From Anaeromonas gelatinilytica (GTDB taxonomy: Bacteria; Bacillota; Clostridia; Tissierellales; SIT17): a stretch of DNA of 44,291 bases. Shown one piece after another: positions 2,677 through 43,927 of this stretch. The DNA is taken from positions 1 to 44,291 of the forward strand of contig NZ_WSFU01000045.1 in NCBI RefSeq assembly GCF_016820635.1. Reading direction: 5' to 3'. The notes beneath the pieces are model-generated. The model was not told the origin of the DNA and did no database searches. It saw nothing but the letters and a program-made list of their open reading frames with translations. How positions within the stretch are numbered: the first letter of the stretch is position 1; each line of letters begins with the position of its first letter. The position numbers and the translations under genes were made by a program.

Positions 2677-3510
2677 ATGATTAATTATAAAATAGAATAT
2701 ATTATTAAGAATGCTTTATTAGAAGATATGAATAATGGAGATATAACTACAGATAATTTGGTAAAAGAGGAAAGTAAAATTAGAGCTGAAATAAAAGTGA
2801 AAGAAGATGGAGTTATTGCGGGATTAGACATAGCTAAAGAAATATTTAAATATTTAGATAATGATATATGCTTTGAAAGTTTTATAAGAGATGGAGAAAA
2901 GATAAAAAGAGGAACAATTATAGCTATAATGGATGGACATACTAGAGCTATATTATCAGCAGAGAGAATAGCTTTAAATATTTTACAGCGATTGTCAGGA
3001 ATAGCTACTAAAACACATAAATATATAGAGAAGTTATCAGATTATAATTGTAGAATTGTAGATACTAGGAAGACTACTCCGGGGTTAAGAGTATTAGAAA
3101 AATATGCAGTAAGAGTTGGAGGGGGATTTAATCATAGATTTAATTTATCAGATATGGTTATGATTAAAGATAATCATATTAAGGTAGCCGGAGGAATTAA
3201 TGAGGCAATAAATATAATTAAGTCTAAGGTTTCTCCTATTGTAAAAATTGAGGTTGAGGTAGAAAATTTAAGTCAATTTCAACAAGCTTTAGAATTAGGA
3301 GTAGATATTATAATGTTAGATAATATGAGTTATGAAGACATGAAAAAAGCTGTGGAAATGAATAATAAAAAGGTATTGATTGAAGCATCCGGAAATATAG
3401 ATTTAGATACAATTGAAGAAGTTGCAAGAACAGGAGTAGATATTATTTCTTCTGGTGCTTTAACTCATTCTGTAAAGGCTTTAGATATAAGCCTAAATGT
3501 TGTATACTAA
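2677..3510 (+). CDS. nadC: Nicotinate-nucleotide pyrophosphorylase (quinolinate phosphoribosyltransferase) NadC
   Basis: NadC converts quinolinate and PRPP to nicotinate mononucleotide, CO2 and pyrophosphate. The 277-residue length is normal. The type II PRTase signatures are clear: AERIALNILQRLSGIAT (95-111), DTRKTTPGLR (129-138) and GGGFNHRFNLSDMVMIKDNH (148-167), which carry quinolinate- and PRPP-binding Arg, His and Lys residues. It starts at ATG after AAAGAGGTG, 19 bases past nadB, and is followed at once by a terminator, so it closes the nad operon. Confidence 0.96.
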   Translation: MINYKIEYIIKNALLEDMNNGDITTDNLVKEESKIRAEIKVKEDGVIAGLDIAKEIFKYLDNDICFESFIRDGEKIKRGTIIAIMDGHTRAILSAERIALNILQRLSGIATKTHKYIEKLSDYNCRIVDTRKTTPGLRVLEKYAVRVGGGFNHRFNLSDMVMIKDNHIKVAGGINEAINIIKSKVSPIVKIEVEVENLSQFQQALELGVDIIMLDNMSYEDMKKAVEMNNKKVLIEASGNIDLDTIEEVARTGVDIISSGALTHSVKALDISLNVVY

Positions 3511-3537
3511 AAGATGATAGTTTTATCATCTTTTTTT
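3511..3537 (+). terminator. Intrinsic terminator of nadABC
   Basis: AGATGATA pairs with TATCATCT across a 4-base loop, followed by a run of seven to eight T, directly after the nadC stop. Confidence 0.85.
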
Positions 3538-3597
3538 ATTTGCTAATAATTATATAATTATGATTGAATTATATAAAATAATTTTGAGGAGGAAAAA

Positions 3598-4950
3598 ATG
3601 AAAAATATAATATTAGATTATTCTAATGCACTAATTAAAGAGGAAGAATTACAAGGAATAAAGCCTGTTGTTGAATTGGGTCATGAATTATTACATACTA
3701 AAGAAGGATTAGGGAACGAGTATTTAGGATGGATTGATTATCCTATTAATTATGATAAAGAAGAATTTAATAGAATAAAGGAAGCTTCTAAAAGAATAAA
3801 AGGAAATTCTGATGTTTTTATTGTGATAGGTATTGGTGGCTCTTATTTAGGAGCTAGGGCTGCTATAGAAGCTTTAAATCATACATTTTATAATAATTTA
3901 AATAAGGAAGAAAGAAAAGCACCAGAGATATATTATGTAGGCAACAATATAAGTGGAAGATATATTAAGGATTTATTGTGTGCAATTAAAGATAAAGATG
4001 TAAGTATAAATATTATATCTAAATCTGGTACTACTACTGAGCCAGCTTTGGCCTTTAGAATTTTAAGAAAATATTTAGAAGATAAGTATGGAGAAGAAGA
4101 AGCTAGAAATAGAATATATGCTACTACGGATTCCTCTAAGGGAGCTCTGAGACAATTAGCGGATGATGAAGGATATGAGTCTTTTGTTATTCCTGATGAT
4201 ATAGGGGGTAGATTTTCTATTTTTACTCCAGTAGGATTATTACCCATAGCAGTATCTGGATTAAATATAGATGAGATGATGAAAGGTGCTAAAGATGCTA
4301 GAGAAGAATACAGTAAAAGAAGGTTTAAAGATAATATAGCATATCAATATGCAGCCATAAGAAATGTTTTATATAATAAAGGAAAAGAAATTGAGATATT
4401 AGTAAACTATGAACCTTCATTACATTTTTTATCAGAGTGGTGGAAGCAATTATATGGAGAGAGCGAAGGGAAAGATGGAAAAGGTATTTTCCCTTCATCT
4501 GTTGATTTTTCAACTGATTTACATTCCATGGGACAATATATTCAAGAAGGGAAAAGGCATTTATTTGAAACTGTTATAAATATTGAGAAGCCTAATTTAG
4601 ATATAAAAATAGAAAAGGATGATAAGAATCTAGATGGACTCAATTATTTAGTTGGAAAAACTATGGATTTTGTAAATAAAAAGGCTTTTGAAGGCACATT
4701 ATTAGCCCATATAGATGGGGGAGTTCCAAATTTAGTTATTGGTGTACCAAAATTAAATGAATACTATTTTGCTAAATTAATATATTTCTTTGAAAAAGCT
4801 TGTGGAATAAGTGGATATATATTAGGAGTAAATCCATTTAATCAACCAGGAGTAGAAAGTTACAAAAAAAATATGTTTGCATTGTTAGGGAAAGAAGGAT
4901 TTGAGGATTTGAGAAGAGGATTAAATAATAGAATAAATAGAAATGAATAA
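3598..4950 (+). CDS. pgi: Glucose-6-phosphate isomerase
   Basis: It interconverts glucose 6-phosphate and fructose 6-phosphate in glycolysis and gluconeogenesis. The protein has 450 residues, the short Firmicute type. The sugar-isomerase domains carry [11 protein letters not shown] (78-88) and the phosphate-binding SKSGTTTEP (141-149). [16 protein letters not shown] (278-293) holds the catalytic glutamate region, [14 protein letters not shown] follows, and HIDGGVPNL comes late in the protein. It starts at ATG behind GAGGAGG. It is probably monocistronic, lying after the nad terminator. The only candidate below it before the next terminator is a 23-codon reading frame. Confidence 0.96.
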
Positions 4951-4954
4951 TAAT

Positions 4955-4974
4955 CTTGTATCATTGCATACAAG
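4955..4974 (+). promoter_or_regulatory. Hairpin covering part of a ribosome binding site
   Basis: CTTGTAT (4955-4961) pairs perfectly with ATACAAG (4968-4974) across a 6-base loop, and its right arm overlaps the AAGGAG (4972-4977) in front of the 23-codon frame. There is no T-run, so it is not a terminator. It may mask the ribosome binding site. Confidence 0.4.
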
Positions 4975-4985
4975 GAGAAGAGTAG

Positions 4986-5057
4986 ATGATCATAAGAAAA
5001 CTAATAAATAAATTTATATCAGATATTGCAATTGAAAATGTATTTAATAAAATATAG
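4986..5057 (+). CDS. Candidate 23-residue peptide downstream of pgi
   Basis: ATG lies 8 bases after a full AAGGAG and opens a 23-codon frame ending in TAG inside the left arm of the following terminator. The predicted product alternates hydrophobic and basic residues (MIIRKLINKFISDIAI at the N-terminal part), consistent with a short amphipathic helix. I recognise no family. It could be a real small protein translated from the pgi mRNA tail, or a remnant of a longer lost gene. Support rests only on the ribosome binding site, its spacing and its fit between the pgi stop and the terminator. Confidence 0.35.
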   Translation: MIIRKLINKFISDIAIENVFNKI

Positions 5058-5084
5058 CTACCCTAGAGGGTAGCTATATTTTAT
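5047..5084. terminator. Bidirectional terminator between pgi and the nitroreductase
   Basis: A perfect 17-bp stem (5047-5063 with 5068-5084) and a TAGA loop has A-runs on the left and T-runs on the right, so it can end transcription from both sides. Its right arm contains the stop codon of the - strand nitroreductase. Confidence 0.85.
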
Positions 5085-5719
5085 TCGATTATAGTAAGAA
5101 CTTCTTCTATTGGTTTTCTAGGAGGTTTTTTTATTTCTGTACTAGTAGGTATTCCTAGAGGAGTTATAGCTGCTAGGAAATAATCTTTTTTATTAAAGCC
5201 TATAAAATCAGTAATTTCTTTTTTAGCATAGAGAGGACCTGTCATCCAACAACTTCCATATCCCATAGAAGTAGCTGCCAAATGTAAATTTTCCATTGCT
5301 GCAGCAATATTTTGAATTCCTGGTGATGGTTTAAGAAGATCATGTATTTCTTCTTTAGAAGCTCCTTTAGCTTTTAAAGCTTTTAATCCTGCAGGGATAT
5401 AAGGGCCTGCATATAATAATATTAAAATAGGAGCATTCTTAAATATAGTATGATATTTTAAGAATTTTGTTAGACTTTTCTTATCTTTTTCACTATCTAA
5501 ATAAGAAGCTAATTTACTATTTTTCTTTTCTACTATTTCTGCAATAGCATTAATTTTTTCTTTATCTTTTATAACAACAAAGTGCCAATTTTGAAGGTTT
5601 TTTCCTGATGGAGCTTGAGTTGCTGCTTTGATTAATGTTTTAATGTCATCATTACTTATAGTTTCATCGGTGAATTTTCTTATACTTTTTCTTTTATAAA
5701 TAAAGTCTAAATTTGCCAA
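5081..5719 (-). CDS. Nitroreductase-family FMN oxidoreductase
   Basis: This 212-residue member of the nitroreductase superfamily is expected to bind FMN as a dimer and reduce an organic substrate with NAD(P)H. The natural substrate cannot be told from the sequence. Family features: RKSIRKFTDETIS at the start (FMN-phosphate-binding RxSxRxF), AATQAPSGKNLQNWHFVV, a central AAMENLHLAATSMGYGSCWM, and LGIP near the end. The start is TTG at 5719-5717, with AAGGAGG (complement of 5727-5733) 7 bases upstream. It is convergent with pgi. Its upstream region has a tandem repeat that duplicates a TATAAT hexamer. Confidence 0.85.
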   Translation of the reverse strand: MANLDFIYKRKSIRKFTDETISNDDIKTLIKAATQAPSGKNLQNWHFVVIKDKEKINAIAEIVEKKNSKLASYLDSEKDKKSLTKFLKYHTIFKNAPILILLYAGPYIPAGLKALKAKGASKEEIHDLLKPSPGIQNIAAAMENLHLAATSMGYGSCWMTGPLYAKKEITDFIGFNKKDYFLAAITPLGIPTSTEIKKPPRKPIEEVLTIIE

Positions 5720-5731
5720 AAATATACCTCC

Positions 5732-5761
5732 TTATTAGATTATAAATTATTAGATTATAAA
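5732..5761. repeat. Perfect 15-bp tandem duplication in the nitroreductase promoter
   Basis: TTATTAGATTATAAA occurs at 5732-5746 and again at 5747-5761. On the - strand each copy carries TATAAT, so the duplication gives two possible -10 boxes 15 bp apart in front of the nitroreductase. Confidence 0.7.
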
Positions 5762-5786
5762 GTTGAAATGTTGTAAACTTTATAAT
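5754..5786. repeat. 11-bp inverted repeat upstream of the nitroreductase
   Basis: ATTATAAAGTT (5754-5764) and its exact complement AACTTTATAAT (5776-5786) flank an 11-base spacer. It resembles an operator and sits at the promoter position of the divergent nitroreductase. It does not match the PerR box well. Confidence 0.5.
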
Positions 5787-5899
5787 ACTTCTTTTAAATA
5801 TTATAATCCTCATTTTTTACTTCTGCAAGTTCTTTAGTGTGTGCATTTTAATATGCTATATCTAATGATATATTATTGAATATGAGGTTTTTAGTACAA

Positions 5900-5961
5900 A
5901 TTAAATAATCATGTATGGATTTTAATACATATGTATTAAAATCCATACATGATTATTTAAT
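5900..5961. promoter_or_regulatory. Perfect 62-bp palindrome, candidate enhancer of the crt operon
   Basis: Bases 5900-5930 are the exact reverse complement of 5931-5961 with no spacer. Each half holds its own dyad of ATGTAT and ATACAT separated by 8 bp: 5911-5916 with 5925-5930, and 5931-5936 with 5945-5950. The two dyad centres are 20 bp apart, about two helical turns. They lie about 109 and 129 bp before the predicted sigma-54 start, a usual place for an enhancer bound by a sigma-54 activator. No T-run follows, so it is not a terminator. A further weaker dyad, GCAT-N6-ATGC, is at 5843-5856. The rest of the gene-free stretch 5787-5899 shows nothing else I can assign. Confidence 0.6.
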
Positions 5962-5968
5962 GAAATAG

Positions 5969-5977
5969 TGGTATAAT
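5969..5977 (+). promoter_or_regulatory. Extended -10 promoter (sigma-A) before crt
   Basis: TG-G-TATAAT is a perfect extended -10 element. There is no good -35 box; the -35 position falls in the right arm of the 62-bp palindrome. A protein bound there could block or recruit polymerase. Confidence 0.45.
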
Positions 5978-6022
5978 ATAGCTGGAAGTCTTAAAATAGC
6001 AAATAATAATTTTCAAAGATCT

Positions 6023-6038
6023 TGGCATATTATTTGCA
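6023..6038 (+). promoter_or_regulatory. Sigma-54 (RpoN) promoter of crt
   Basis: TGGCATATTATTTGCA matches the -24/-12 consensus TGGCAC-N5-TTGCW at all positions but one, with correct spacing between GG (6024-6025) and GC (6036-6037). The predicted start near 6049 gives a 27-base leader containing the crt ribosome binding site. Such promoters need an ATP-dependent enhancer-binding activator; none is encoded in this window. Confidence 0.7.
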
Positions 6039-6075
6039 TTTGTATATACATAATAGAAGTCAAAGGAGGGATAGT

Positions 6076-6855
6076 GTGGATTTTAATAGTCTAACACTAC
6101 AAAGAGAGGGTAGCATAGCAATTCTTAAGATTAATCGACCTAAGGCTTTAAATGCACTAAATACTGAAGTATTATTGGAGCTTGATAAAGCAATAGAGGA
6201 TTTAAAGTTTGATGAAGATGTAGATGTTATTGTTTTATCAGGAGAAGGAAAAGCATTCGTAGCAGGCGCAGACATCTTAGAGATGAAGGATAAGAATGCT
6301 AATGAAGCTAGAGTTTTTGCTGAAATAGGTATTAGTGTGTTTAGAAAGATCGAAACAATGGAAAAACCAGTAATTGCAGCAGTAAATGGATTTGCTTTAG
6401 GAGGAGGATGCGAACTTTCGATGGCATGTGATATGAGAATCGCATCTGAAAAAGCTAAATTTGGACAGCCAGAGGTAGGATTAGGAATAATACCTGGATT
6501 TTCAGGAACTCAAAGATTATCAAGATTAGTTGGTACAGCTAAAGCTAAGGAATTAATATTCACTGCTGATACAATAAATGCCAAAGAAGCAGAAAGAATT
6601 GGGTTAGTAAATAAAGTTGTAGCTCCTGAGGATTTAATGAATGAAGCTATTGATTTAGCTGAGAAGATTTCGTCTAAAGCTCAAATAGCTATTAGACATT
6701 CTAAGATGGCTATAAATAGAGGTATAGAAACAGATATTGAAACAGGAATGGAGATAGAAAAAGATTTATTTGCATTATGTTTTGCAAGTGAGGATCAAAA
6801 AGAAGGAATGACTGCCTTTACAGAAAAAAGAAAGGCAAATTTTAAAAATAAATAA
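6076..6855 (+). CDS. crt: Crotonase / enoyl-CoA hydratase (3-hydroxybutyryl-CoA dehydratase)
   Basis: It reversibly hydrates crotonyl-CoA to 3-hydroxybutyryl-CoA in butyrate formation or use. The 259-residue crotonase fold shows GKAFVAGADI (59-68) and NGFALGGGCELSMACDM (104-120), which form the oxyanion hole. The likely catalytic pair is E113 and E133, 20 residues apart as in rat enoyl-CoA hydratase (E144/E164). I chose GTG 6076, behind AAAGGAGGG, because an upstream in-frame TTG at 6022 lies inside the sigma-54 promoter. It is followed 24 bases later by hbd. The name crt is inferred from this neighbour; other short-chain enoyl-CoA substrates are possible. Confidence 0.9.
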   Translation: MDFNSLTLQREGSIAILKINRPKALNALNTEVLLELDKAIEDLKFDEDVDVIVLSGEGKAFVAGADILEMKDKNANEARVFAEIGISVFRKIETMEKPVIAAVNGFALGGGCELSMACDMRIASEKAKFGQPEVGLGIIPGFSGTQRLSRLVGTAKAKELIFTADTINAKEAERIGLVNKVVAPEDLMNEAIDLAEKISSKAQIAIRHSKMAINRGIETDIETGMEIEKDLFALCFASEDQKEGMTAFTEKRKANFKNK

Positions 6856-6879: not shown

Positions 6880-7725
6880 ATGAAAGTCAGTGTTATAGGT
6901 GCAGGTACAATGGGTTCAGGAATAGCTCAAGCTTTTGCTCAAGCGGGTCATGAAGTAATAATTAAAGATATTGCTCAAGAAGGTATTGATAAAGGAATTG
7001 GTGTAATATCTAAGAATTTAGATAGGTTGGTTAAGAAGGAAAAAATAACTAATGAAAAAAAAGAAGAAATTCTTTCAAGAGTAAGTGGAACATTGAAGAA
7101 TGATGGTATAAAAGATTCTGATATTGTAGTAGAAGCTGCTTTAGAGAAAATGGAAGCAAAGAAAAGCATATTTAAAGAATTAGATGAGATATGTAAAGAG
7201 GATACTATATTAGCTTCTAACACTTCATCATTATCGATTACTGAAATTGCTAGTGCAACAAACAGACCAGATAAAGTAATAGGAATGCATTTCTTTAATC
7301 CAGTACCAGTTATGAAATTGGTAGAGATTATTAAAGGTATTGCAACATCACAAGAAACATACAATAAAGTATTTGAATTGTCTAAGGAATTAAGCAAAAA
7401 ACCTGTAAAAGTTGAAGAGGCTCCAGGTTTTGTTGTTAATAGAATTCTTGTTCCGATGATTAATGAAGCTATAGGTATATTAGCTGATGGAGTTGCTTCA
7501 GCTGAAGATATAGATGAAGCAATGAAATTAGGTGCAAATCATCCTATAGGACCTTTAGCTTTAGGAGATTTAATTGGAAATGATGTTTGTCTAGCTATTA
7601 TGGAAGTATTATATGAAGAGTTTGGGGATTCTAAGTATAGACCACATCCTTTACTGAGAAAAATGGTAAGAGGTGGACTTTTAGGAAGAAAAACAAAAAA
7701 GGGATTTTATGATTATAACAAATAA
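6880..7725 (+). CDS. hbd: 3-hydroxybutyryl-CoA dehydrogenase
   Basis: It interconverts acetoacetyl-CoA and (S)-3-hydroxybutyryl-CoA with NAD(P)H. The 281-residue length is typical of clostridial Hbd. It has the N-terminal dinucleotide fold [14 protein letters not shown] (7-20), SNTSSLSI with S117, the catalytic HFFNP (H137) and E149, and a C-terminal domain ending [12 protein letters not shown]. It starts at ATG after a purine-rich GGGGG. It lies 24 bases after crt and is almost certainly co-transcribed with it. thl follows after a modest hairpin. Confidence 0.93.
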
Positions 7726-7861: not shown

Positions 7862-9040
7862 ATGAGAGAAGTAGTAATTGTTGGTGCAGCAAGAACACCA
7901 GTTGGATCCTTTGGAGGATCATTATCAAAATTATCAGCTGTAGATTTAGGAGTTATGGCTACAAAAGAAGCAATAAAAAGAGCAGGTATTAAACCTGAAA
8001 TTGTAGATGAAGTTATCATTGGGAATGTATTATCATCAGGATTAGGTCAAAATCCAGCAAGACAGATAGCTGTAAACACAGGATTACCTGAAACCATTCC
8101 AGCTATGACTGTAAATAAAGTTTGTGGTTCAGGACTTAGAACAGTAAGTATGGCAGCACAATTTATTATGCTTGGAGATGCTGATGTTATCGTTGCAGGA
8201 GGAACAGAAAGTATGAGTAATGCTCCATATCTTTTACCTAATACAAGATGGGGAAAGAGAATGGGAGATGGAAAGATTGTAGATAGTATGATTAAAGATG
8301 CATTATCTGATGCATTCCATAATATTCATATGGGAATTACAGCAGAAAATATTGCTGAACAATGGAATATAACTAGAGAAGAACAAGATGATTTTGCACT
8401 TATAAGTCAAAATAGAGCAGAAAAGGCCCAAAAAGAAGGAAGATTTAAAGATGAAATAGTTCCAGTGGAAGTTCCTCAAAGAAAAGGAGATCCTATATTA
8501 GTAGAAGATGATGAATTTATCAAACCTGGAATGACAATAGAAAAATTATCTAAACTTAGAACAGCTTTTAAGAAAGATGGTACTGTAACGGCAGGGAATG
8601 CTTCAGGAATTAATGATGGAGCAGCAATGTTAGTAATTATGTCAAAAGAGAAGGCTGAAGAATTAGGACTTAAACCATTAGCTACAATTAAATCTTATGG
8701 TTCATCAGGATTAGATCCAAGAATTATGGGATATGGTCCAGTACCAGCAACTAAAAAAGCACTAGAAAAAGCTAATATGAAGGCTGAAGATATTGAGTTA
8801 ATAGAAGCAAATGAAGCTTTTGCAGCACAATCATTAGCAGTAGTTAAAGATTTAGGATTAAATCCTGAAATAGTAAACGTTAATGGTGGAGCAATATCAA
8901 TTGGACATCCAGTTGGAGCAAGCGGTGCCAGAATTCTTATAACATTATTATATGAAATGATTAAAAGAGATGTTAAGACAGGTCTTGCAACACTTTGTAT
9001 AGGTGGCGGTCAAGGTACTGCAGTAATACTTGAAAGATAA
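7862..9040 (+). CDS. thl: Acetyl-CoA C-acetyltransferase (biosynthetic thiolase)
   Basis: It condenses two acetyl-CoA to acetoacetyl-CoA, the first step towards butyrate, or runs in reverse. The 392-residue protein has the complete thiolase triad: nucleophile C88 (VNKVCGSGL), H349 ([12 protein letters not shown]) and C379 ([12 protein letters not shown]), with NEAFAAQ also present. It starts at ATG with AAAGGAGG. With hbd and crt it spans acetyl-CoA to crotonyl-CoA; butyryl-CoA dehydrogenase and the Etf subunits, often in the same operon, are absent here. Confidence 0.95.
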
Positions 9041-36968: not shown

Positions 36969-38354
36969 GTGAATTATCAGTTTTTCGACTTTGTAGGATG
37001 GATAACTAATCCTTTTATTTTAATGTTTTTAGCTGTATTTACTGGTTTGCTTTTTGGAAAAATTAAGTTTGGAAAATTTAATTTTGGAGTTTCTGGAGCA
37101 TTATTTACAGGTATTGTTATAGGATGGGTTATAACAAAATATGCAAATGGTTTTTCAGAAGGTTCTACAGGTTATAGTTCAGCACAAAATATGTTATCAG
37201 TCGGAGTTATTCCTAAGGATTTCTTTAATTTATTTTTAATATTATTTGTAGCAGCTGTAGGTTTATTAGCTGCAAAAGACATGAATGTGGTTATTAAAAA
37301 GTATGGTACAAAATTTATTCTTTTAGGCCTTGTAATTACTTGTATAGCTGCAGGAGCCACATATGTAATGACAATTTTAAGTGAGGATTCAAATCCTTAT
37401 GAAGTTGCTGGAGTATATACAGGAGCATTAACTAGTTCTCCTGGGTTAGCAGCGGCTATTGAAACTGCTACAGACCATGCAACTGATAAAATTGCAGAAT
37501 TTGATGATATGAATGACAATGAAAAAATAAAGATAGCTAAAGAGTTAGATATAGACTCAGAAGAAATTACTAAAGAAGGATTTCAATTGACATCAGAACA
37601 AAAAAGTGAGTTTATTAATAATGCTGAGGCAGGAATTGGAGCTGGTCATGCTATTGGATATCCTTTTGGAGTTCTTGTGGTTATACTTGCGGTGAATTTT
37701 TTTCCTAATATATTTAAATTAGATGTGGAAAAAGAAAGAAAATTATATAGAGAAGAGATGGAGGCTGCAAGAAAAGCTGCAAATGTGAAAGAGATTAAGA
37801 CTGTTAGTTTTGATTTGATAGCGTTTTCAGTAGCTTGTTTATTTGGTTATACTATAGGTCAGATCACTATTCCTCTTGGACCATTAGGAGATTTTAGTTT
37901 AGGAGCTACTGGAGGAGTACTTATAGGTTCTTTATTGTTAGGATATATAGGAAAGATAGGTCCTCTTTATTTTAGAATGGATAGCAATATCCTTAGTGTT
38001 GTAAGACAATTATCATTAGCATTCTTCCTTGCAATAGTTGGATTAAGATATGGATTTGTTGTTATAAATTCTGTGGTTAGTTCAACAGCGGGTGCATATT
38101 TAGCTTTAGTATCATTAGTTGTAGGTGTTGTGGGTATGTTAATTGGATTTTTAATTGGAAGATATGTATTTAAATTAAATTGGCTTATGTTGTCTGGAGC
38201 AATTTGTGGTGGAATGACATCTACGCCAGGGTTAGGTGCAGCCATTGAAGCAGCAGGAAGCGACGAACCAGCAGCTGGTTATGGAGCAACATATCCCTTT
38301 GCATTATTAGGAATGGTATTATTTACAATTATTCTTCATAAATTACCCATGTAG
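36969..38354 (+). CDS. AAE-family (aspartate:alanine exchanger / YidE-YbjL type) permease
   Basis: A 461-residue membrane protein with about 10-12 hydrophobic segments in two repeats. Each repeat holds the family signature: TGALTSSPGLAAAIE near residue 150 and GGMTSTPGLGAAIE near 420, the latter followed by GYGATYPFALLGM. AAE members include AspT and the succinate exporter SucE of Corynebacterium. The central soluble region is only about 90 residues, too short for the two TrkA-C domains of AspT. It starts at GTG after AAGGGGG. With CoA transferase and methylmalonyl-CoA genes downstream, a dicarboxylate or propionate exchanger is the best guess; the substrate is not proven. Confidence 0.8.
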   Translation: MNYQFFDFVGWITNPFILMFLAVFTGLLFGKIKFGKFNFGVSGALFTGIVIGWVITKYANGFSEGSTGYSSAQNMLSVGVIPKDFFNLFLILFVAAVGLLAAKDMNVVIKKYGTKFILLGLVITCIAAGATYVMTILSEDSNPYEVAGVYTGALTSSPGLAAAIETATDHATDKIAEFDDMNDNEKIKIAKELDIDSEEITKEGFQLTSEQKSEFINNAEAGIGAGHAIGYPFGVLVVILAVNFFPNIFKLDVEKERKLYREEMEAARKAANVKEIKTVSFDLIAFSVACLFGYTIGQITIPLGPLGDFSLGATGGVLIGSLLLGYIGKIGPLYFRMDSNILSVVRQLSLAFFLAIVGLRYGFVVINSVVSSTAGAYLALVSLVVGVVGMLIGFLIGRYVFKLNWLMLSGAICGGMTSTPGLGAAIEAAGSDEPAAGYGATYPFALLGMVLFTIILHKLPM

Positions 38355-38405
38355 TTTTTATATTTGATAGAATATAGGTAAAAGCTTTTAAATGGAGTGG
38401 TTAAT

Positions 38406-38726
38406 GTGAAGAATGATGAAGTGTTTTTGACTGGTTATGCAAAATTACCAGATGGAATTACTGCAAAAGAATTGTATGTAGTAGTAGCTTTAGGGTTAGT
38501 CGTTGATAGGGAAACAAGTGAAATATTAGAAGCTGAACCTACTTTATCTACACATGTAGCAAGAGATTTTGTTTCAAAATTATTGGTTGGAGAAAAATTA
38601 AATGACATAAATCATATTGAAAATAAATTTAGACATAACTATTTTGGTTCAGCTAAAAAGGCTGTTTTGACAGCTATTAGAACATGTCATAAAAATTACA
38701 AAAAAATTCATGGAGACTTAGAATGA
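38406..38726 (+). CDS. DUF3870 domain protein of unknown function
   Basis: A 106-residue, probably cytoplasmic protein that I recognise as the DUF3870 type, known mainly from anaerobic Firmicutes near CoA-ester genes. Visible parts are VFLTGYAKLPDGITA, a hydrophobic strand YVVVALGLVVD, TLSTHVARDFVSKLLVGE, and a His/Tyr-rich end (HNYFGSAKKAVLTAIRTCHKNY). I chose GTG 38406, which is 5-6 bases after GGAGTGG; GTG 38397 lies inside that site. It is 13 bases before the CoA transferase gene and very likely co-transcribed with it. No function is known to me; a regulatory or accessory role is a guess. Confidence 0.75.
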   Translation: MKNDEVFLTGYAKLPDGITAKELYVVVALGLVVDRETSEILEAEPTLSTHVARDFVSKLLVGEKLNDINHIENKFRHNYFGSAKKAVLTAIRTCHKNYKKIHGDLE

Positions 38727-38739
38727 AGGGGGAAATAAA

Positions 38740-40242
38740 TTGTTGGAGAAAAGATTGCGTTGTGCAAAGCTTAAAGATAAAATCATGGAAGCAAAAGAAG
38801 CAGCTAAATTCTTTGAAAAAGACATGGTAGTTGGTACCAGTGGATTTACCCCAGCAGGATATCCAAAATCTGTCCCTTTAGCATTAGCTGAAAGGGGAGA
38901 AAAGGGAGAAGATTTAGGTCTAACTATTATTACTGGTGCATCTGTAGGAGATGAATTAGATGGTGCTTTATCAAGAACAGGAGTGCTAAAAAGAAGATAT
39001 CCTTATCAGACTAATAAGGATTCAAGAAATAAAATCAATGACGGTAGTGTTCAATATTCTGATATGCATTTAAGTCATGTACCACAATGGGTTAAATATG
39101 GTTTTTTTGGTAATATAGATATAGCTTTAGTAGAAGCTGTAGCTATTAGAGAAGATGGGGGAATAGTACCTTCTACTTCAATAGGAAATTCTAATGTTTT
39201 TGTAGAAAAAGCAGATAAAGTTATAGTAGAGATAAATACTAGTCAACCATTGGCATTAGAAGGAATTCATGACATATATAGTCCTGAAAATCCACCAAAT
39301 AGGAGACCAATTCCATTAACTAGAACTAATGAAAGAATTGGTACGGATTATATACCATGTGACCCGGATAAAATAGTAGCAATAGTAATATCTGATATAA
39401 AAGATAAAACTAGACCTGTAGCTTCAATAGATGACGTATCAAAGCAAATGGCAAAACATTTAATAGGATTTCTAGAGAAAGAAGTAAAGGAAGGAAGATT
39501 GCCTGAAAATTTATTACCATTACAGTCAGGAGTAGGAAGTGTAGCTAATGCAGTTTTGGGAGGACTTGTTGATTCTAAATTTGAGGATTTGACAATATAT
39601 TCAGAGGTTATTCAGGATTCAGCATTAGATTTATTAGATTCAGGAAAAGTAACCTTTGCATCAGGTACTTCACTAACAGTATCTCCTGATAGACTAGATG
39701 ATTTTTATGATAATTTTCATAAATATAAAGAAAAAGTAGTCTTAAGACCTCAAGAAATAAGTAATAATCCTGAGGTGATAAGAAGATTAGGTATTATAGC
39801 TATGAATACAGCTATTGAATTAGATATATATGGAAATGTAAATTCTACTAATATAATGGGAAGTAAAATGATGAATGGTATAGGTGGATCTGGAGATTTT
39901 GCTAGAAATGCATATTTATCTATATTTACTACTCAATCTATAGCAAAGAATGGAGATATTTCTAGTATTGTACCAATGGTATCTCATCATGATCATACAG
40001 AACATGATGTTCATGTTATTGTTACAGAACAGGGAGTTGCAGATTTAAGAGGATTGAGTCCAAAAGAAAGAGCTAAAACAATTATAGAAAATTGTGCACA
40101 TCCAGATTATAAAGAACAGTTAATGGAATATTTATCCAGCTCTCTTGAAAAGTCTGCTTCTAAACATTTACCTCATGCCATGGATAAGTCTTTGTCTTGG
40201 CATAAAAGATTTTTAGAACAAGGTACAATGAAAATCAAGTAA
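38740..40242 (+). CDS. Acetyl-CoA hydrolase/transferase family CoA transferase (Cat1/ScpC-like)
   Basis: A 500-residue member of the family containing clostridial Cat1 (succinyl-CoA:acetate), AarC and ScpC (propionyl-CoA:succinate CoA transferase). It moves CoA between short acids through a glutamyl-CoA intermediate. The likely catalytic residue is E289 in IYSEVIQDSALDLLDSG. Family motifs: VGTSGFTPAGYPKSVP, LQSGVGSVANAVLGGL, GIGGSGDFARNAYLS and VTEQGVADLRG. The start is TTG 38740 after AAGGGGG, with a second TTG next to it. Beside methylmalonyl-CoA mutase, propionyl-CoA plus succinate giving propionate plus succinyl-CoA is the favoured reaction; acetate is also possible. Confidence 0.88.
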   Translation: MLEKRLRCAKLKDKIMEAKEAAKFFEKDMVVGTSGFTPAGYPKSVPLALAERGEKGEDLGLTIITGASVGDELDGALSRTGVLKRRYPYQTNKDSRNKINDGSVQYSDMHLSHVPQWVKYGFFGNIDIALVEAVAIREDGGIVPSTSIGNSNVFVEKADKVIVEINTSQPLALEGIHDIYSPENPPNRRPIPLTRTNERIGTDYIPCDPDKIVAIVISDIKDKTRPVASIDDVSKQMAKHLIGFLEKEVKEGRLPENLLPLQSGVGSVANAVLGGLVDSKFEDLTIYSEVIQDSALDLLDSGKVTFASGTSLTVSPDRLDDFYDNFHKYKEKVVLRPQEISNNPEVIRRLGIIAMNTAIELDIYGNVNSTNIMGSKMMNGIGGSGDFARNAYLSIFTTQSIAKNGDISSIVPMVSHHDHTEHDVHVIVTEQGVADLRGLSPKERAKTIIENCAHPDYKEQLMEYLSSSLEKSASKHLPHAMDKSLSWHKRFLEQGTMKIK

Positions 40243-40339
40243 TATTAAAAAAAATTAACATTATAATATATTGAAGGTTTTATATAAATACATGTAGAAA
40301 ATTGTAGCATAATATATGGGTTAAATTTTAGAGTTATAA

Positions 40340-40380
40340 AAAATACTCCTAATAATTTTAGTACTAGGTACTAGTATTTT
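40340..40380. repeat. Nested inverted repeats upstream of the methylmalonyl-CoA mutase gene
   Basis: AAAATACT (40340-40347) pairs with AGTATTTT (40373-40380), enclosing CCTA/TAGG. Inside lies the dyad TACTAG-GTA-CTAGTA (40362-40376). It has no T-run, so an operator or weak attenuator is more likely than a terminator. No convincing promoter was found in 40243-40456, so the mutase genes may be read through from upstream. Confidence 0.4.
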
Positions 40381-40456
40381 GTCATAAAATAAGTTAGGAT
40401 TAAGAAGAAAAGTATTTTATTGATAATCTTTAGCTCTTAATAAAGGAGGTCTAATT

Positions 40457-42136
40457 GTGATTAAAGATGAGAAAATGAAAGAAATTAAGGATTCAACTAA
40501 AAAATGGGAAGAAACAACTGTTGATAAAGCTATTTCAAGATTCCCAGAAAGAAAAAAAGAATTTAAAACTGGCTCAGGGTTAAAAGTAGATAGACTTTAT
40601 ACTCCTGAAAATGTTGAAGATTTAGATTATGAAAATGACTTAGGATATCCAGGACAATATCCATATACTAGAGGAGTCCAACCTACTATGTATAGAGGTA
40701 GATTATGGACTATGAGAATGTATGCGGGATTTGCAACTGCAGCAGAATCAAATAAAAGATATAAATATCTAGTAGAGCAGGGTTCAACAGGTCTTTCAGT
40801 AGCTTTTGATTTACCTACTCAGATCGGATATGATTCGGATCATTCATTAGCAGAAGGAGAAGTAGGAAAGGTTGGAGTTGCAATAGATTCATTAAAGGAT
40901 ATGGAATTACTTTTTGATGGTATACCATTAGATAAAGTAAGTACATCAATGACTATAAATGCTCCAGCATCTGTACTATTGGCTATGTATATAGCAGTAG
41001 CTGAAAAGCAAGGGGTATCTCAAGAAAAATTAAGGGGAACTATCCAAAATGATATCTTAAAAGAGTATATTGCTCGTGGAACTTATATATTCCCAACGGA
41101 AGAATCTATGAGATTAATAACTAATATATTTGAATATTGTTCAGAAAATGTACCAAAATGGAATACAATAAGTATTTCTGGTTATCACATTAGAGAGGCT
41201 GGATCTACAGCGGCTCAAGAAGTAGGATTTACATTAGCAGATGGTATAGCATATGTGGAAGCTGCAATTAAAGCAGGTCTTGATGTAGATTCATTTGCAC
41301 CAAGACTATCATTCTTCTTTAATGCTCATAATGATTTATTAGAAGAAGTTGCTAAGTATAGAGCTGCTAGAAGATTATGGGCAAGAATAATGAAAGAAAG
41401 ATTTGGAGCTAAAAATCCAAAATCAATGATGCTTAAATTTCATACACAAACTGGTGGTTCTACATTAACAGCTCAACAACCAGAAAATAATGTGGTTCGT
41501 GTGGCTATTCAAACATTAGCAGCTGTTCTTGGAGGAACTCAGTCATTGCATACAAATTCTAAAGATGAAGCATTGGCTTTACCTTCAGAAACATCTGTAA
41601 GAACTGCTCTAAGAACTCAGCAAATTGTCGCTCATGAAAGTGGAGTTACAGAAACAATAGATCCTTTAGCTGGATCATATTATGTGGAAGCTAAGACAGA
41701 TGAAATTGAAGAAAAAGCTATGGAATATATTAAAAATATAGACGAAATGGGTGGAGCACCTAAGGCTATTGATGAGGGATACATCCAAAAAGAAATCATG
41801 GATGCTGCTTATAATTACCAAAAGGATATTGAGTCTGGAGAAAATATTGTGGTTGGAATGAATAAATTCCAGGCAGAAGAAGAAGCTCCAAAGGATCTAT
41901 TAAAAGTTGATCCTGCAGTAGGAGAAATGCAAAAAGATAGAATAAAAGCTCTTAAAGAAGAAAGGGATAATGAAGCGGTTTCAGATAAATTAGAAAACTT
42001 AAGAAAAGCTTGTGAAAGTGATGAAAATGTAATGCCATATATAATAGATGCAGTTAAAGAATATGCCACTCTAGGAGAGATTTGTGGAGTAATGAGAGAA
42101 ATATTTGGTGAATATGAACAAGCGGTAATGTTATAG
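40457..42136 (+). CDS. Methylmalonyl-CoA mutase, catalytic (large) subunit
   Basis: It interconverts succinyl-CoA and (R)-methylmalonyl-CoA by B12 radical chemistry. The 559-residue protein is the TIM-barrel half only; the cobalamin domain is the next gene. Substrate-defining residues are readable with Propionibacterium numbering: Y89 (RMYAGF), Q197 (TIQND), R207 (IARGTY), Y243 and H244 (SGYHIREAG). Y89 with R207 marks methylmalonyl-CoA mutase; isobutyryl-CoA and 2-hydroxyisobutyryl-CoA mutases have Phe or Ile with Gln. It starts at GTG behind AAAGGAGGT. It forms one run with the next four genes. Confidence 0.93.
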
Positions 42137-42163
42137 AGATAAATGTATAAAGGAGGAGTTTAA

Positions 42164-42559
42164 ATGGATAGACCAATTAGAGTATTAGTTGCTAAGCCAG
42201 GACTAGATGGTCATGATAGAGGAGCTAAAGTTATTGCAAGAGCTCTTAGAGATGCAAGTATGGAGGTAATATATACTGGTCTTAGACAAACTCCAGAACA
42301 AATAGTAGCAGCGGCTATACAGGAGGATGTAGATGTTGTTGCTATGAGTATATTATCTGGAGCTCATAATCATTTGTTTCCAAAGGTAGTAAAACTTTTT
42401 AAAGAAGAAGGAGTAGAAGATGTACTTGTTATAGGAGGAGGAGTTATACCAGATGATGATATACCAGGACTAAAAGAAGCTGGTATAGCAGAAGTATTCA
42501 CACCAGGAACTCCTACTACTAAAACAATAGAATTTATAAAAAATAATTTGAAAAAGTAG
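42164..42559 (+). CDS. Methylmalonyl-CoA mutase, cobalamin-binding (small) subunit
   Basis: A 131-residue B12-binding domain that supplies adenosylcobalamin to the catalytic subunit upstream. The signature DxHxxG is present (D15, H17, G20 in [10 protein letters not shown]), where the histidine replaces the lower cobalt ligand (base-off, His-on). [12 protein letters not shown] and [12 protein letters not shown] complete the Rossmann-like fold. It starts at ATG with AAGGAGGAG, 27 bases after the large subunit. The split arrangement is like that of archaea and some anaerobic bacteria. Confidence 0.95.
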
Positions 42560-42569
42560 AGGATATTAG

Positions 42570-43511
42570 GTGGTGCTAAATTTGGACTTAATAAATAAAT
42601 TGCTTCGAGGAGATAAAAGAACTTGTGCAAGAATGATAACAAAAATTGAAAATAATGAAAAAGAAGCAGAAGATATTTTGAAGGGAATATATGAGCATAC
42701 TGGTAATGCTCATATAATTGGGATAACAGGACCACCAGGTGGAGGAAAAAGTACTTTAACGTATAGATTGAGTAAGGAATTAAGTAATCAGGGCAAAAAA
42801 GTGGGGATTATTGCAATTGACCCCACTAGTCCCTTCACAGGAGGGTCTATACTTGGAGATAGAATAAGAATGAATAAATTGGCAACTGATCCTAATGTAT
42901 TTATAAGAAGTATGGGTACTAGAGGACATTTGGGAGGATTATCAAAAGCAACCCATGGAGGAATAAAAGTTTTTGATGCATATGGATGTGATTATATATT
43001 TGTAGAAACAGTAGGAGTGGGGCAATCCGAGGTAGATATTGTAAAAACTGCTGATACTGTAGTAATGGTCATGGTACCTGGATTAGGAGATGATATTCAA
43101 GCTATTAAGGCGGGAATTATGGAAATAGCAGATATATTTGCTATAAATAAGAGTGATTTGGAAGGTTCTGAAAGAACTACAAGAGAAATAAGAATGATGG
43201 TTGAGATGGGAAATGAGGAGAAAAAACCGCCGATTCTTAATGTTATAGCAAATCAAAATGAGGGTATTAGAGAACTTATAGAAGAAATACACAAACATAA
43301 AGAATATTTAATTTCAACAGGTAAATTAGAAGAGAAAAGACTTGAAAGGATAAGATCAGAAATAATTACATTAATAGAAGATGAAATTAAATCAAGAATA
43401 TTTAATGATAAAGATGTATATAAGTTATTAGACAATGTATTAAAAGATGTTTATAATAAAGAATTAGATCCTTATACTGCTAAGGATAAATTATTTAAAG
43501 CTATTATCTAA
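42570..43511 (+). CDS. meaB: Methylmalonyl-CoA mutase GTPase chaperone MeaB (ArgK family)
   Basis: MeaB is a G3E-type GTPase that loads and protects the cobalamin cofactor of the mutase. The 313-residue protein has the P-loop GPPGGGKS (54-61), [34 protein letters not shown] (switch region) and the base-recognition NKSD. A C-terminal helical part promotes dimers. The start is uncertain: GTG 42570 follows AGAGGA by 6 bases, while TTG 42582 follows AGGTGGTG by 8 and would give MDLINKLL. It begins 10 bases after the small subunit and is plainly part of the same operon. Confidence 0.93.
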
Positions 43512-43525
43512 AGGAGGATATTATT

Positions 43526-43927
43526 ATGGTAAAAAAAGTAGATCATATAGGTGTGGCTGTTAAAGATTTAGAAGAAACTATAAAATTTTATACTGATATT
43601 TTAGGTATGGATTTACAAGGAACAGAAGTTGTTGAGGAACAGAAGGTTAAAGTTGCATTTTTACCTATAGGCGATAGTGAAATGGAATTGTTAGAGTCTA
43701 CAGAAAAAGATGGACCTATAGCTAAATTTATTGAGAAAAAAGGTCAAGGTATACAACATATTGCGTATAGGGTAGATGATATAGAGAAGAGTATAGAAGA
43801 ATTGAAAGCAAAAGGAATAAAAATGATTGATGAAAAGCCAAGATATGGAGCAGGAGGAGCAAAAATAGCTTTCTTACATCCTAAAAGTACTCATGGTGTA
43901 TTAGTGGAAATTTGTCAAAGAGATTAA
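43526..43927 (+). CDS. mce: Methylmalonyl-CoA epimerase
   Basis: It interconverts (R)- and (S)-methylmalonyl-CoA, linking the mutase to the carboxyltransferase that follows. The 133-residue vicinal-oxygen-chelate fold has two beta-alpha-beta-beta-beta modules. Likely metal ligands are H7 (VDHIGVAV), H78 (IQHIAYRV) and E128 (VLVEIC), with glutamates in MELLE near 53-57. It starts at ATG with AAAGGAGG, 14 bases after meaB. Confidence 0.94.

Follow-up and report, generated by a model that had tools for sequence, protein, structure and literature searches.

Paired dyads inside a perfect 62-bp palindrome as a likely sigma-54 enhancer of the crt-hbd-thl operon in Anaeromonas gelatinilytica

The window analyzed here is a stretch of 44,291 nucleotides from Anaeromonas gelatinilytica, and it carries a crt-hbd-thl operon preceded by a sigma-54 promoter match and, further upstream, by a perfect palindrome that contains two dyads (Table 1). 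The promoter match, TGGCATATTATTTGC at positions 6023-6037, agrees with the consensus TGGCAY-N5-TTGC, and it is followed by a ribosome-binding site and then by the GTG codon of crt. A nitroreductase-family gene is transcribed divergently from the operon. More CoA metabolism appears to be encoded near crt, downstream at 36969-43927 of the window, where genes named by eye include a putative transporter, an acetyl-CoA hydrolase/transferase and methylmalonyl-CoA mutase subunits, as well as a MeaB-like GTPase and a methylmalonyl-CoA epimerase.

Table 1. Positions of the palindrome, its proposed activator sites, the promoter element and the adjoining genes in the window
Feature	Position	Strand	Basis
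Nitroreductase-family gene, divergent from crt	5081..5719	-	PF00881
Exact 62-bp palindrome, 31-bp arms, zero spacer	5900..5961	.	Equals its own reverse complement
Dyad 1, TGT-N12-ACA TGTATGGATTTTAATACA, proposed activator dimer site	5912..5929	.	bcd-site matrix score 20.0
Dyad 2, TGT-N12-ACA TGTATTAAAATCCATACA, proposed second activator dimer site	5932..5949	.	bcd-site matrix score 20.0
Sigma-54 promoter, -24/-12 element TTGGCATATTATTTGC	6022..6037	+	Pattern match; kept in 4/4 genomes of the genus
crt, short-chain enoyl-CoA hydratase, GTG start after AAGGAGGG	6076..6855	+	NF004475 above cut-off
hbd, 3-hydroxybutyryl-CoA dehydrogenase	6880..7725	+	NF004474 above cut-off
thl, acetyl-CoA C-acetyltransferase (thiolase)	7862..9040	+	TIGR01930 above cut-off

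The initial annotation of this DNA had described a perfect 62-bp palindrome built from two ATGTAT-N8-ATACAT dyads 20 bp apart, and both statements were borne out. The palindrome is the longest perfect one of the window, where the runner-up measures 32 bp, and the dyads occupy 5911-5930 and 5931-5950, with a center-to-center distance of 20 bp. Their TGT-N12-ACA cores start 111 and 91 bp upstream of the TGG of the sigma-54 element. With a transcription start placed approximately 12 bp after the -12 GC, at about position 6049, the dyad centers lie approximately 129 and 109 bp upstream of this inferred start, the same range that had been given before. A search of the genome found no second copy of the palindrome stretch. 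By our own arithmetic, in which assumed base frequencies give a probability of about 0.298 per complementary pair, 31 such pairs would be expected by chance in 44 kb with a probability of roughly 2e-12, and a chance origin was therefore rejected. The length had also been called extreme for chance. The genome itself offers a second measure: 34 perfect palindromes of at least 32 bp without a spacer occur in 686 kb, and the 62-bp palindrome is thus the longest member of a common class.

This class was defined in a survey of perfect hairpins with arms of at least 16 and spacers of 0-12, runs of N being excluded. The sample of 686 kb consisted of (i) 296 kb around activator genes and (ii) 390 kb not so chosen, and it contained 66 perfect hairpins, including the 34 with zero spacer (for instance, L031:3982-4039, L025:946-993 and L227:7571-7622). 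We refer to this genome as G000 and to the sister species of the genus as G001, G002 and G003. In samples of the sisters, the zero-spacer share was 10/21 (G002), 4/12 (G003) and 1/5 (G001); elsewhere it was 6/15 (G006), 3/4 (G248), 0/2 (G005), 0/4 (G211) and 1/1 (G219), and 4/25 in 607 kb of named crt loci of other genera. The zero-spacer share does not set the genus apart, given the values for G006 and G248 as against those for G001, G005, G211 and G219. A gene 3' end faces 29 of the 34 zero-spacer palindromes of this genome, within 60 bp in 23 cases, while four have no facing 3' end and one lies inside a reading frame. Judged by position and A/T tracts, the remaining ones mostly resemble bidirectional terminators; the crt palindrome is among the four that no gene 3' end faces.

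The genus comprises four genomes, all with crt, and in each of them a pair of TGT-N12-ACA dyads 20 bp apart precedes this gene, the first dyad lying 110 or 111 bp upstream of the TGG of the promoter. The promoter sequence TGGCAT-N2-TATTTGCA is invariant in all four. The dyads of the sister species are TGTATATTTTTTTATACA and a degenerate TGTCCGAGAAAACAGACG, the latter ending in ACG, in G001, TGTATATTATTTTATACA and TGTATGGATTTCTGTACA in G002, and TGTATATTATTTTATACA and TGTATGGGTTTCTGCACA in G003. The 62-bp palindrome is present at crt in none of these three species, and was found in this genome alone; in the alignment of the genus, the slices of G002 and G003 are shorter on the left side. The conserved unit is the dyad pair, not the 62-bp palindrome. 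Conservation of the half-sites in relatives, to which the initial annotation had tied its reading, is accordingly found for the dyad pair and promoter, in 4/4 members of the genus and in two of four further genomes with crt, but not for the palindrome itself.

When 249 genomes of the order were searched for a dyad pair combined with the promoter, five matched, namely the four of the genus at crt and one from another family (G204), and a reversed-pattern control yielded no match in the same genomes. In G204 the match precedes a gene resembling a short-chain fatty acid transporter, beside that genome's own, different activator gene, and the pattern is therefore not specific to one regulator. A dyad pair with promoter also precedes a short-chain fatty acid transporter gene (PF02667) in G002 (L177:1501-1613; G002:C1:501061), a probable further target of the crt activator or of a relative. 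We sought crt itself in five genomes picked from 27 with strong activator matches; it was found in four of them, at seven places, and six of these seven crt-like loci (all except L211) were inspected. Two of the six, belonging to G005 and G006 from two other families, have a 20-bp dyad pair with a sigma-54 element at crt, with pair-to-TGG distances of 170 and 195 bp. The order-wide pattern missed both because it allowed only 55-85 bp between pair and promoter. A dyad pair with promoter was not found at the other four loci (L207, L208, L209 and L210, from G006, twice from G010, and from G013), so that by genome G005 and G006 have the arrangement and G010 and G013 do not, though the latter two carry relatives of the activator discussed below. 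Over the four genomes of the genus together with G005 and G006, dyad starts fall 90-195 bp upstream of the -24 TGG; the pair retains its 20-bp spacing and its distance from the promoter varies between families, as an enhancer allows.

Outside the order, a crude scan of at most 500 bp before crt in 67 of 80 named loci revealed no N12 dyad pair with promoter. The 13 loci left out either had too little upstream sequence (three) or came from distant groups (ten), and the scan misses operons that start with thl (L060, L088). An exact TGGCAY-N5-TTGC precedes crt in five of the 67 loci (L064, L065, L066, L079 and L104), and a TGTTA-N6-TAACA dyad precedes it in 21, all from other genera. The operator consensus of Rex resembles TTGTTAA-N4-TTAACAA. 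No TGTTA-N6-TAACA dyad occurs in the 1.5 kb before the crt gene studied here, and a Rex operator was thus rejected for this locus. With one mismatch allowed, the pattern TGTAT-N8-ATACA is too unspecific to be informative: it occurs at 328 places in the whole genome, versus 247 for the reversed control. Besides crt and the activator locus on contig C99 described next, exact copies lie inside reading frames (contigs C10 and C69), before a frame of 221 amino acids (C86) and after a frame (C17). No exact sigma-54 match was present on C10, C17 or C86, and the one on C69 is approximately 4.7 kb off.

An enhancer of this kind presupposes both sigma-54 and an activator, and their lack had been named beforehand as one of two objections to the reading. 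This objection does not hold, as the genome encodes rpoN (G000:C87:93286-94677; TIGR02395 above cut-off, with PF00309, PF04963 and PF04552) and has 18 above-cut-off matches to the sigma-54 activator domain, of which 15 are strong. The gene for an activator with CBS, PAS, AAA+ and Fis domains is located on contig C99 (G000:C99:951-3008) between rex and bcd-etfBA; rex (L026:265-897) comes directly before it and the bcd-etf genes. The acyl-CoA dehydrogenase encoded there is nearest to NF042972, below the cut-off, and two etf-like genes follow. Between the activator and dehydrogenase genes lie TGTATGAAAATTAACACA and TGTATGAAATAATATACA together with a weak sigma-54 element, and a dyad partner 19 bp away was read by eye. 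The sigma-54-like element on the bcd side of this genome, TGGTATAGTTTATGC, is further off the consensus than that of the relatives (G001-G003, G005 and G006), which reads TGGCAC-N5-ATGC and departs from it by one base.

In all six genomes looked at, the gene for this activator or for one of its closest relatives precedes bcd and is accompanied by TGT-N12-ACA dyads and a sigma-54-like element, and bcd-side dyads 19-20 bp apart were seen in three of the six (G003, G005 and G006). CBS domains were confirmed for the activator relatives of G002, G005 and G006. By eye, the order of a rex-like gene, the activator gene and bcd recurs in G001-G003, G005 and G006. This order is suggestive of joint redox and sigma-54 control. 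The initial annotation had advised looking for an activator gene with the same dyad nearby, and a likely one, with matching dyads, is thus encoded beside bcd-etfBA.

The sites of the two operons were linked with a symmetrised matrix, for which 11 sites between the activator gene and bcd-etf were hand-picked from six genomes by the TGT-N12-ACA pattern, the crt sites being excluded from training. When 686 kb of the 2.89-Mb genome were scanned, the top two matches were the two crt dyads (20.0 each), ahead of training sites at 19.2 and 15.4 and a further match at 15.1. Likewise, among the 300-bp regions before 21 exact sigma-54 matches, that of crt came first, the second-best region scoring 13.2. 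One of the crt dyads is weak in G001, G005 and G006, with matrix scores of 5.0, 6.7 and 4.3. Most likely, the crt dyads are the enhancer of the CBS-PAS-AAA+-Fis activator, which would coordinate crt-hbd-thl with bcd-etfBA.

The same enhancer might be bound by a different activator, for example a relative of a further activator gene that lies just after thl in two sisters, G001 (L160, G001:C23) and G003 (L157, G003:C12). We consider this unlikely. The genome's 15 strong activator-domain matches and the linkage of that gene to crt in G001 and G003 speak for it, and TGT-N10..12-ACA is common to 15 activator groups in the relevant passages of PMC6615313, so that another of the genome's activators could bind. 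However, that gene does not follow thl in G000 or G002, two species whose crt dyads are kept; the dyads that adjoin the post-thl gene have the N11 rather than the N12 spacing; and the bcd-side activator, with its matching N12 motif, is present in every one of the genomes looked at. In G001 and G003 the post-thl gene precedes branched-chain amino acid transporter-like genes. Other paralogous activators of the sisters have motifs resembling TGTAAAT-N4-ATTTACA nearby, dyads of this form being at the center of perfect palindromes of 44-50 bp with A/T tracts (L156:3090-3139 and L154:2937-2980), so there, too, site and terminator-like hairpin may overlap. A bidirectional intrinsic terminator or insulator, whose hairpin would stop transcripts from either side, is a further reading: a terminator scan flags it on both strands as a stable hairpin with a T-rich tail, its RNA fold amounts to -37.2 kcal/mol (z -9.6), and the other zero-spacer palindromes of the sampled genome mostly face gene ends. 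This palindrome, however, is flanked by two divergent gene starts and faced by no gene end, its stem is AT-rich, and the dyads rather than the hairpin are conserved, all of which makes this function quite improbable.

A cruciform extruded by supercoiling, which the initial annotation had offered as an alternative, would act as a DNA-level switch that blocks or positions the activator. Such a role would suit a perfect, AT-rich symmetry of 62 bp, the longest without a spacer in 686 kb, with a DNA fold of -26.2 kcal/mol (z -10.5). Perfect palindromes are common in this genome, however, and mostly found at gene ends, and the sisters keep dyads and promoter without the symmetry, indicating that regulation there does not require it. 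The cruciform therefore draws no support from conservation, and we regard it as very unlikely. Little probability likewise attaches to an operator for a classical repressor or activator at a sigma-70 promoter, a role with which the long inverted symmetry would be compatible and for which an extended -10-like sequence (TGGTATAAT, 5969-5977) can be picked out by eye. By eye, that hexamer lacks a good -35 and is not kept in the sisters, whereas the -24/-12 element is invariant; sigma-70-like matches occur at the level of shuffled sequence (8 versus 7.6), and the distance between dyads and promoter varies by approximately 60-85 bp between families.

The perfection of the symmetry calls for an explanation separate from that of the dyads. 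Symmetric dyads that adjoin each other inherently make up a quasi-palindrome: in the 38-bp dyad pair of the sisters, 11 (G001), 12 (G002) and 10 (G003) of 19 pairs are complementary, compared with an expectation of 5.7. Imperfect inverted repeats are described as mutation hotspots whose arms become homogenized, with template switching acting at quasi-palindromes, in passages on E. coli (PMC7202029) and yeast (PMC8604942). Template-switch correction in this lineage probably made the palindrome perfect, a proposal that, unlike the quasipalindrome mutation treated in those passages, is drawn from a comparison of four species, no mutation having been observed. In the sisters, a gene cluster whose last member was named by eye as an ABC-transporter ATPase gene ends immediately upstream of the dyads. 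Nothing in this genome closely matches that ATPase (best identity, 40%), synteny clearly shows the sisters' intervening genes to be absent, and the nitroreductase gene adjoins crt, which makes the left flank new here. We infer that the correction, or a fold-back event, would have occurred near the new left-flank junction. The outer 11 bases of the palindrome agree with the right flank of the sisters at 8, 9 and 8 of 11 positions, and with their left flank at 7, 6 and 6 of 11. Activator binding and the enhancer role most likely do not depend on symmetry outside the dyads, and the eye-catching perfection is probably incidental. It is extremely doubtful that the symmetry was selected, with the enhancer doubling as a supercoiling-sensitive cruciform; if it was, extrusion would remove or expose both activator sites at once and couple butyrate synthesis to DNA topology, and so to energy state. 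The species comparison separates the conserved core, the paired dyads, from a lineage-specific perfection of the palindrome, and cautions that length of symmetry should not be read as function.

We think it likely, on the strength of these sequence comparisons, that the palindrome serves as the upstream activating sequence of the crt-hbd-thl sigma-54 promoter, the C99 activator most likely being the protein bound. Each dyad would receive one dimer of a Fis-type enhancer-binding protein. The two neighboring dimers would be separated by about two helical turns, and by looping of the DNA their AAA+ domains would reach the closed polymerase with sigma-54, approximately 110-130 bp away. If the bound protein is this CBS-PAS-AAA+-Fis activator, one signal would switch on both halves of the pathway from acetyl-CoA to butyryl-CoA; the CBS and PAS domains suggest that this signal may involve the sensing of nucleotides and of redox state or a ligand. 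The initial proposal, an enhancer serving a CoA-metabolism activator, is thus supported as a prediction by the conserved pair and promoter, by rpoN, and by the matching dyads beside bcd-etfBA. The element is real and in all likelihood functions as an enhancer of a known type, for which there is a good candidate regulator. That candidate is a CBS-PAS protein whose gene neighbors rex and bcd, with a paired-dyad enhancer, and the separate crt-hbd-thl and bcd-etfBA operons are predicted to be co-regulated.

Among known systems, the AdhR enhancer of C. beijerinckii (PMC7017808) similarly consists of several activator sites located upstream of a clostridial sigma-54 promoter, and mutating any one of its three sites is described there as cutting promoter activity. 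It differs in the alcohol dehydrogenase targets, the three sites and the GAF and PAS sensor, and the passages on its sites describe no perfect palindrome. In the same species, the butyryl-CoA operon is apparently still expressed in a sigL mutant, according to the pertinent part of PMC6510779, and passages of PMC7017808 report more butyrate in sigL mutants, along with Rex control of crt-bcd-etfBA-hbd. These accounts suggest that butyryl-CoA and butyrate synthesis continues in C. beijerinckii without SigL, which counts against sigma-54 control as a general rule.

At an E value of 1e-20, a relative of the activator was found at four of the 80 named crt loci. In C. thailandense and Clostridium sp. 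OS1-26, this relative is 41-52% identical over residues 228-684, the CBS domains falling outside the match, and its gene precedes thl-crt and bcd/etf-like genes, with N12 dyads at a spacing of 33 bp. The pattern used detected no sigma-54 element before thl in either locus, and both are therefore only suggestive. In OS1-26, two reading frames apiece correspond to the activator gene, thl and a bcd-like gene (L088:938-2307, 2781-3972 and 4797-5935); these are frame breaks in the gene or in the assembly.

The closest parallel is the CrbR system, for which sigma-54 control of butyryl-CoA synthesis was already published in 2019 (PMC6615313). As far as its description of that system extends, the two share the same genes, a predicted sigma-54 promoter, multiple TGT-N10..12-ACA sites and a Fis-type activator, and upstream activator sites are mostly placed there at 100-250 bp from the sigma-54 promoter. 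The present system departs from the one so described in that (i) crt-hbd-thl and bcd-etfBA are separate operons, (ii) the activator has N-terminal CBS domains and is encoded beside rex and bcd, and (iii) the dyads come as a pair with 20-bp spacing, which in this genome makes up a perfect palindrome. By analogy, the crt enhancer is predicted to work like the CrbR enhancer, and a further lineage of anaerobes would then likely be added to those in which sigma-54 controls the synthesis of butyryl-CoA.
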